This document shows positions 24,945 to 25,261 of a stretch of DNA of 40,375 nt, piece after piece. The translations under genes and the position numbers were made by a program. The DNA is from a virus, in the IMG/VR virus record IMGVR_UViG_3300017917_003325, positions 1 through 40,375 of that record; one strand, written 5' to 3'. The notes beneath the pieces are model-generated. The model worked only from the letters and a program-made list of their open reading frames with translations, had not been told where the DNA came from and made no database searches. The first letter of the stretch is position 1. Every line of letters starts with the position of its first letter.

Positions 24945-24959
24945 TTCTAAGGGTTTTAT

Positions 24960-25047
24960 GCGAGTGAGACTTGGTAGTCAGAGGAGTCTTATAAACTCTT
25001 TCCGCCAGATTAGCGGCTTTGACCTGGTTCGAATCCAGGCACTCGTA
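24960..25047 (+). tRNA. tRNA-like gene, class II shape, apparent UAU anticodon
   Basis: The acceptor stem GCGAGTG (24960-24966) pairs with CACTCGT (25040-25046), with one G-T, and A25047 is the discriminator. The T arm is perfect: CCTGG, TTCGAAT, CCAGG (25023-25039). The anticodon arm GGAGT / CTTATAA / ACTCT (24983-24999) puts TAT at 24990-24992, an isoleucine AUA anticodon. A 23-base variable arm holds a CCGC/GCGG hairpin, as in Leu, Ser or Tyr tRNAs, not Ile. The D arm is short (GAC, 6-base loop, GTC) and position 8 is A rather than U. CCA is not encoded. It is either a real but odd tRNA, possibly leucine-derived, or a decayed one. Confidence 0.55.
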
Positions 25048-25049
25048 TT

Positions 25050-25123
25050 GCTCGTTTAGCCATCTGGTGAAGGCAGCGTTCTCATAAAGCGCCGTAGGAA
25101 GAGTTCGATTCTCTCAACGAGCA
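25050..25123 (+). tRNA. tRNA with CAU anticodon (elongator Met or Ile2)
   Basis: Acceptor GCTCGTT (25050-25056) pairs with AACGAGC (25116-25122), discriminator A. U8 and A9 are present, D stem GCC/GGC, anticodon stem GCGTT/AGCGC with loop CTCATAA, so the anticodon is CAT. The T loop is TTCGATT, with an A-C mismatch at the stem base. G1-C72 pairing excludes an initiator. Elongator Met and lysidine-modified Ile2 cannot be told apart by eye. No encoded CCA. Confidence 0.88.
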
Positions 25124-25124
25124 C

Positions 25125-25168: not shown

Positions 25169-25255
25169 GGGCGAGTGATGAAATTGGTTAGACATTTCAG
25201 ACTTAAAATCTGACGGGCATTAATGCCCATGCGGGTTCGAGTCCCGCCTCGCCTA
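25169..25255 (+). tRNA. tRNA-Leu (UAA)
   Basis: Acceptor GGGCGAG pairs with CTCGCCT (G1-U wobble), discriminator A25255. Anticodon stem TCAGA/TCTGA with loop CTTAAAA gives anticodon TAA. The class II variable arm GGGCATTAATGCCC and T arm GCGGG/TTCGAGT/CCCGC are complete. It reads UUA, a common codon in this AT-rich phage. No encoded CCA. Confidence 0.95.
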
Positions 25256-25261
25256 CTTAAA

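Follow-up and report, generated by a model that had tools for sequence, protein, structure and literature searches.

A phage tRNA-Ile(UAU) with an anticodon-like GAU hairpin as its variable arm

Results

Organization of the tRNA locus

The window, i.e. the whole stretch of 40,375 nucleotides analyzed here (IMG/VR record IMGVR_UViG_3300017917_003325), is a 40 kb cyanophage contig with S-SRM01 and S-SKS1 as relatives. ARAGORN calls a tRNA-Ile with the anticodon TAT at positions 24959–25048, for which direct reading gives the limits 24960–25047. The gene is flanked by a run of small genes and by a large ORF of 1808 residues that aligns to cyanophage tail fibre genes. The features of the locus are the following:

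24960–25047, + strand: class II tRNA-Ile(UAU), 88 nt without an encoded CCA, the variable arm being a GAU hairpin (ARAGORN, MFE and centroid fold, family alignment with covariation)
24960–24966, + strand: 5' strand of the acceptor stem, GCGAGTG, forming 7 bp with 25040–25046, including G1-U72 (fold)
24968–24979, + strand: short D arm GACT-TGGT-AGTC with a 4-nt loop (fold; the family has several types of D arm)
24983–24999, + strand: first anticodon arm, loop CTTATAA at 24988–24994, anticodon UAU at 24990–24992, with U33 and A37
25002–25016, + strand: variable-arm hairpin CCGC-CAGATTA-GCGG, anticodon-like, GAU at 25008–25010, pairs C29-G41 and C31-G39 (covarying stem, GAU kept)
25017–25022, + strand: 3' linker CTTTGA, 6 nt, unpaired, standing where the class I variable loop would
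25023–25039, + strand: T arm CCTGG-TTCGAAT-CCAGG (fold; compensatory GGTGG/CCACC in relatives)
25040–25047, + strand: 3' strand of the acceptor stem, CACTCGT, and discriminator A73 (25047), the latter in 184/186 unique family members
25050–25124, + strand: neighbouring tRNA with a CAU anticodon, Met or Ile2 (ARAGORN; Rfam tRNA model, 41.9 bits)
25169–25256, + strand: neighbouring ordinary class II tRNA-Leu(UAA) (ARAGORN; Rfam tRNA model, 53.8 bits)

The predicted RNA fold of 24960–25047, for which the MFE and centroid structures coincide (−31.1 kcal/mol, z −2.6), is a five-armed cloverleaf-type structure with a 5/7/5 T arm and a 4-bp stem in the variable arm. It possesses the 7-bp acceptor stem, the anticodon arm with U33, the T arm and the discriminator base of a functional tRNA, whereas position 8 (24967) is occupied by A and U8 is absent. 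The initial annotation, made from the sequence alone, had described sound acceptor, anticodon and T arms, a long variable arm joined to a UAU anticodon in the loop CTTATAA, a short D arm without U8, and a tRNA-Leu(UAA) about 120 bases further on, and ARAGORN, the fold and direct reading bear out each of these points; the 7-nt loop CAGATTA of the variable arm, with its GAU, had been overlooked. The covariance-model scoring that it had proposed left the gene outside the Rfam tRNA model (no match at E ≤ 1), and the tRNA-Sec model reached 32 bits, short of its gathering score (47).

Conservation and distribution

The cyanophage S-SRM01 carries an unannotated copy of the gene that is identical at 88/88 positions, next to a gene of 74.7% identity. 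At least 119 viral contigs contain an exact 35-mer of the gene's 5' half, and the T stem of these relatives exists in two compensatory forms, CCTGG/CCAGG and GGTGG/CCACC. Diverged members, likewise with UAU as anticodon, are found in S-SKS1 and S-CRM01; directly after the UAU tRNA of S-CRM01 lies an orphan 3' half (L004 3979–4055) consisting of variable arm, linker, T arm and acceptor strand, possibly the relic of a second copy. The whole family of two-hairpin tRNAs amounts to about 400 loci, a count that includes a few loci entered twice for one place, and to 213 unique sequences. Beyond cyanophages, carriers comprise the Vibrio phages henriette 12B8 and Brizo together with many of their relatives, Acinetobacter phage qsb1, Lactobacillus phages and bacterial tRNA arrays; in phages, the members are mostly annotated as plain tRNA-Ile or not at all.

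Bacterial occurrence is sporadic, with model matches in 8/297 genomes of Acidobacteriota and 5/199 of Rhodobacteraceae, one of the latter (L467) being a tRNA-Leu according to ARAGORN. The acidobacterial members sit in tandem tRNA arrays of 12–34 genes (L468–L472), each of those examined containing exactly one two-hairpin UAU tRNA and four of the five one Ile(GAU). Judged from this gene content, the two-hairpin tRNA appears to take the AUA slot within near-complete arrays, beside Ile(GAU). All 23 bacterial genomes tested possess TilS, so the two-hairpin tRNA is accessory there, and the idea that carrier bacteria have no TilS and need this tRNA instead was rejected. TilS was not found in the phages S-SRM01, S-SKS1 or S-CRM01.

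The GAU hairpin of the variable arm

Across the family the variable arm is a hairpin of 4–5 bp with a 7-nt loop (V-loop), the sole invariant letters of which are GAU at loop positions 3–5. The main tRNA-Ile of bacteria has this triplet as its anticodon. Already among the first relatives compared, the loop stays CNGATTA while the stem changes. Searches that left the variable arm unconstrained recovered GAU at these positions in 97/102 unique members, in 15/15 and in 64/64, the last set being occurrences of the cyanophage subtype (38 unique); hairpins of the GAU type are present in only 3/376 Leu, Ser and Tyr tRNAs of the same contigs. Of the five exceptions among the 102, two hold CAGATTA with an imperfect stem, and the others are L399, a class II UAU tRNA without GAU, and L404 and L415, which belong to a group lacking the D arm. 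Conversely, searching by V-loop and T arm with the anticodon left free gave 98 UAU calls out of 103, i.e. the conserved anticodon expected of an AUA reader. Among the five other calls, three are Gly tRNAs with the motif in the anticodon arm and two are odd calls whose sequences also contain TTATAA.

Over 186 unique members, part of which were found through the motif itself, the V-loop has Y32 in 100%, A33 in 94%, GAU in 100%, U37 in 87% and A38 in 94%. The corresponding numbers in an unbiased subset of 112 members are C32 92, A33 109, GAU 112, U37 88 and A38 100, this subset being restricted to members with a GAU hairpin and hence fair for the flanking letters but not for the rate of GAU. The variants CAGATTA, CAGATAA, TAGATGA, TAGATTG, TTGATAG, TAGATGT, CCGATTA and CAGATCA illustrate that the flanks vary independently around a fixed GAU. 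U33 and A37 are positions required on the ribosome. Of 80 diverse members, all have U33 in the UAU loop and 78 have A37 there, whereas the V-loop has U33 in 3/186 members and mostly avoids A37 as well; from this difference in composition, the two arms look specialized for different partners. Intramolecular kissing of the V-loop was considered and rejected: among the 80 diverse members, the complement ATC is missing from every UAU loop, occurs in two D regions and is found in only 40 T loops, with GAU fixed throughout.

Covariation, linker and synthetase determinants

Covariation was evaluated on an alignment of 40 diverse members, and pairs were counted over 80 representatives at least 14 edits apart. 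In the former, every pair of the acceptor, anticodon and variable-arm helices shows double changes and 97.6% of the cells are paired, a value that none of 500 shuffled or slid versions of the alignment comes near. The acceptor helix is paired to 99.3%, with double changes at all seven pairs, and the variable-arm helix to 98%, with double changes at all four. Among the 80 representatives, most variable-arm stems consist of 4 bp and a mismatched fifth pair; the third pair, 29-41, is C-G in 74 and pair 31-39 is C-G in 72, while 30-40 is free. A stem kept for stability alone would not be expected to fix the orientation of C29-G41 and C31-G39 in this way.

The 3' linker measures 5 nt in 123 members, 6 in 53, 4 in nine and 7 in one, so that in 176/186 its 5–6 nt match in length the variable loop of class I tRNAs. 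Of the 80 diverse members, 59 have a normal D arm together with U8 and A14, the short D arm without U8 being limited to one subtype, and A15 is kept with U48 in 52 of these 59. Given the class I length of the linker and the retention of A15/U48, the molecule can be viewed as a class I tRNA that bears two anticodon arms in tandem.

For E. coli IleRS, A73 and the anticodon are strong determinants and C4-G69 and C29-G41 minor ones (PMC9976931). In the family, A73 is nearly universal, as listed above, and C4-G69 is present in 114/186 members but absent from the gene at 24960–25047; C29-G41 and GAU are present, but placed in the variable arm. A G1-U72 pair, found in 29/40 diverse and 110/186 unique members, is clearly commoner than in the other tRNAs of the same contigs and may be an additional identity or antideterminant element.

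Members and relatives without GAU

The clearest exception in the family is a class II UAU tRNA found in L399, L416 and L418, the variable arm of which (GGGCGGTAGTCCCGGTCACG) has no GAU hairpin. The D-armless UAU tRNA-like group (L363, L368, L371, L382, L392, L395, L403, L404, L405, L408, L415, L429, L442, L447) differs in its variable hairpins, of which GTAACTGGTTAC is an example. Contigs of the two-hairpin family also contain about ten class I UAU tRNAs that lack a GAU arm, and L100, L028, L043, L086, L026 and L014 carry such a tRNA together with a two-hairpin one. Since class I, GAU-less class II and D-armless UAU types all exist, the GAU arm is not obligatory for UAU tRNAs.

Among Lactobacillus phages, LpeD, Lpa804 and ENFP1 keep GAU, whereas 3-521 has GAC and Semele GAA in otherwise intact hairpins. 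This loss in 2/5 compared with 0 of about 150 unbiased members elsewhere gives p = 0.0008 in Fisher's test, for a post hoc comparison with n = 5 and an approximate denominator that leaves out the GAU-less types (L399 type, D-armless). It is suggestive of a fit with the hosts, as the IleRS of lactic acid bacteria reportedly recognizes UAU, according to titles cited in PMC9976931.

Comparison with known tRNAs

With bacterial tRNA-Ile2 (CAU, lysidine 34) the two-hairpin tRNA shares A73 and the job of reading AUA as Ile, but tRNA-Ile2 is a class I tRNA that needs TilS for charging by IleRS, whereas the two-hairpin molecule has an encoded U34 and an additional GAU hairpin; with UAU as anticodon and no TilS in S-SRM01, S-SKS1 or S-CRM01, assignment to the lysidine type was discarded. 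In Mycoplasma mobile, Lactobacillus, Bifidobacterium and others, a class I tRNA-Ile(UAU) likewise has an encoded UAU for AUA, but with a short variable loop. Reportedly, a tRNA-Ile with UAU serves lactic acid bacteria and Mycoplasma, and such systems depend on an adapted IleRS rather than a second hairpin, as indicated by titles that PMC9976931 and PMC11938285 cite. The nematode nev-tRNA-Ile(UAU) also joins a long variable arm to UAU; it is, however, eukaryotic and leucylated in vitro, and the abstract describing it mentions no GAU-loop hairpin (PMC4300185). Beyond these nev-tRNAs, we found nothing in the open-licence literature on a second anticodon hairpin or a V-arm in a phage tRNA-Ile, which is weak evidence of absence.

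The cyanophage subtype resembles tRNA-Sec and allo-tRNAs in its 4-nt D loop, missing U8, long variable arm and weak match to the tRNA-Sec model. On the other hand, the family has a 7/5 acceptor/T branch, UAU and A73, and most members have a normal D arm; tRNA-Sec identity (UCA, 8/5 or 9/4 branch) was rejected on the anticodon, the branch and the sub-gathering score. An extended variable region is held in common with class II tRNA-Leu, Ser and Tyr, from which the family differs by the invariant GAU in a 7-nt V-loop and by the 3' linker of 5–6 nt. Cyanophages also carry tRNA-Leu (UAA, CAA, GAG) of 73–77 nt with short variable loops (L002 3667–3739, L003 4301–4377, L004 3324–3398 and 7868–7941), class I bodies with Leu anticodons that form the converse of the UAU tRNA; tRNA-Leu of 74–79 nt occur in Lactobacillus phage LpeD and in acidobacterial arrays. 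Class II tRNAs with class I amino acid anticodons (Trp CCA, Thr UGU and Thr CGU) in other phage or bacterial sequences (L273, L219, L312, L293, L361) are perhaps misread or suppressor-like Ser/Leu tRNAs.

Discussion

Decoding of AUA and possible roles of the GAU hairpin

AUA makes up 154 of the 863 Ile codons, so a tRNA for it is useful. In homologues of the window proteins at 25–85% identity, the 127 columns aligned with AUA contain, AUA codons excluded, I at 0.33, V at 0.19 and L at 0.14, compared with I 0.50–0.51, V 0.15–0.17 and L 0.11–0.13 for AUU/AUC columns, and L 0.53–0.58 and I 0.11–0.12 for TTA/CTT columns. AUA is isoleucine in the carrier genome, a result that tests the code and not the UAU tRNA alone because the host also reads AUA. 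The initial annotation had suggested that LeuRS charges the tRNA through its class II body, so that AUA codons receive some Leu. A73 suits LeuRS, and in vitro leucylation is known for nematode nev-tRNAs that combine a V-arm with UAU, although mistranslation was not detected in the nematodes (PMC4300185). In the present case the AUA columns are Ile-like and not Leu-like, and Leu recognition does not call for an invariant Ile anticodon in the variable arm or for a linker of 5–6 nt, which makes leucylation very unlikely; assignment as tRNA-Leu likewise failed on the UAU anticodon, the GAU loop and the long 3' linker. The same annotation was right about a class II body combined with UAU, and its alternative of a reshaped tRNA-Ile came close, but the GAU arm was not foreseen.

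Among readings in which AUA is decoded as Ile, the hairpin might serve an enzyme modifying U34, folding, or as an antideterminant against LeuRS, SerRS and TyrRS. The conserved loop and the orientation-specific stem pairs suit any sequence-specific binder, yet the same binder would then have to exist in cyanobacteria, Vibrio, Acidobacteriota and Rhodobacteraceae alike, and the invariant letters are limited to those of the Ile anticodon, at anticodon positions; an intramolecular contact is improbable with no ATC in the UAU loop and ATC in half of the T loops. We regard a role of this kind as rather unlikely. Much less credible still is a bait function, in which the arm would attract an anticodon nuclease specific for tRNA-Ile(GAU) and spare host or phage tRNAs. 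Although tRNA arrays have been discussed as anti-defence elements (PMC12803027), a single bait per tRNA would protect weakly, A33 and U37 differ from a real anticodon loop, and the strict link to UAU would be left without a reason. Finally, the short D arm and the missing U8 had been taken to suggest decay or a special function, and a decoy had been offered as another alternative. The short D arm and the missing U8 are real in this subtype, which the Rfam tRNA model misses, and S-CRM01 does hold an orphan 3' half; conservation in at least 119 contigs, compensatory T stems, covariation and intact members in many phages and bacteria nevertheless contradict a decoy and reduce a decaying or non-coding relic to a negligible prospect.

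A probable division of labour between two anticodon arms

A tRNA-Ile2 in which C34 is unmodified fails to be isoleucylated (PMC11938285), so AUA tRNAs face a charging problem, and by analogy a U34 tRNA would present the same kind of difficulty. Taking the conserved features together, we consider it probable that the two-hairpin molecule is a functional, AUA-reading tRNA-Ile in which the UAU arm works on the ribosome and the GAU arm addresses the host IleRS. Once expressed, it would be read on the ribosome through the UAU arm with its U33 and A37, while the variable arm (Y32-N33-G34-A35-U36-N37-R38 with C29-G41 in the stem) would present the determinants of tRNA-Ile(GAU). IleRS could thereby charge with Ile a tRNA whose U34 would otherwise be poorly recognized, and the phage would need neither TilS nor lysidine. 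With 5–6 nt, the linker behind the GAU hairpin is as long as the variable loop of a class I tRNA, so the GAU arm may replace the anticodon arm under the D stem on IleRS.

Some points speak against the two-arm proposal. Most V stems have 4 bp with a mismatched fifth pair, which makes the fit of the GAU arm to the geometry of IleRS uncertain, and the UAU tRNAs without a GAU arm, class I ones in the same contigs included, also count against it. Moreover, bacterial IleRS relies strongly on t6A37, whereas the V-loop mostly has U37, and the proposal does not account for how misreading of AUG by U34 is avoided.

Implications

The anticodon of many tRNAs serves ribosome and synthetase alike, and AUA is the textbook trouble case, for which bacteria modify C34 post-transcriptionally. 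The two-hairpin tRNA is still a tRNA-Ile for a standard codon and amino acid, widespread yet labelled 'tRNA-Ile' or missed in annotation. If the two-arm proposal is true, it would be a natural tRNA with two anticodon arms, uncoupling decoding from charging identity in one molecule, and would provide phages with a modification-free route to AUA decoding. The two-arm reading opens a direct question, namely which hairpin IleRS reads: if the second one carries the charging signal, the two functions would have been separated by nature in a simple modular way, suggesting a general design for genetic-code engineering in which one anticodon serves decoding and another charging.
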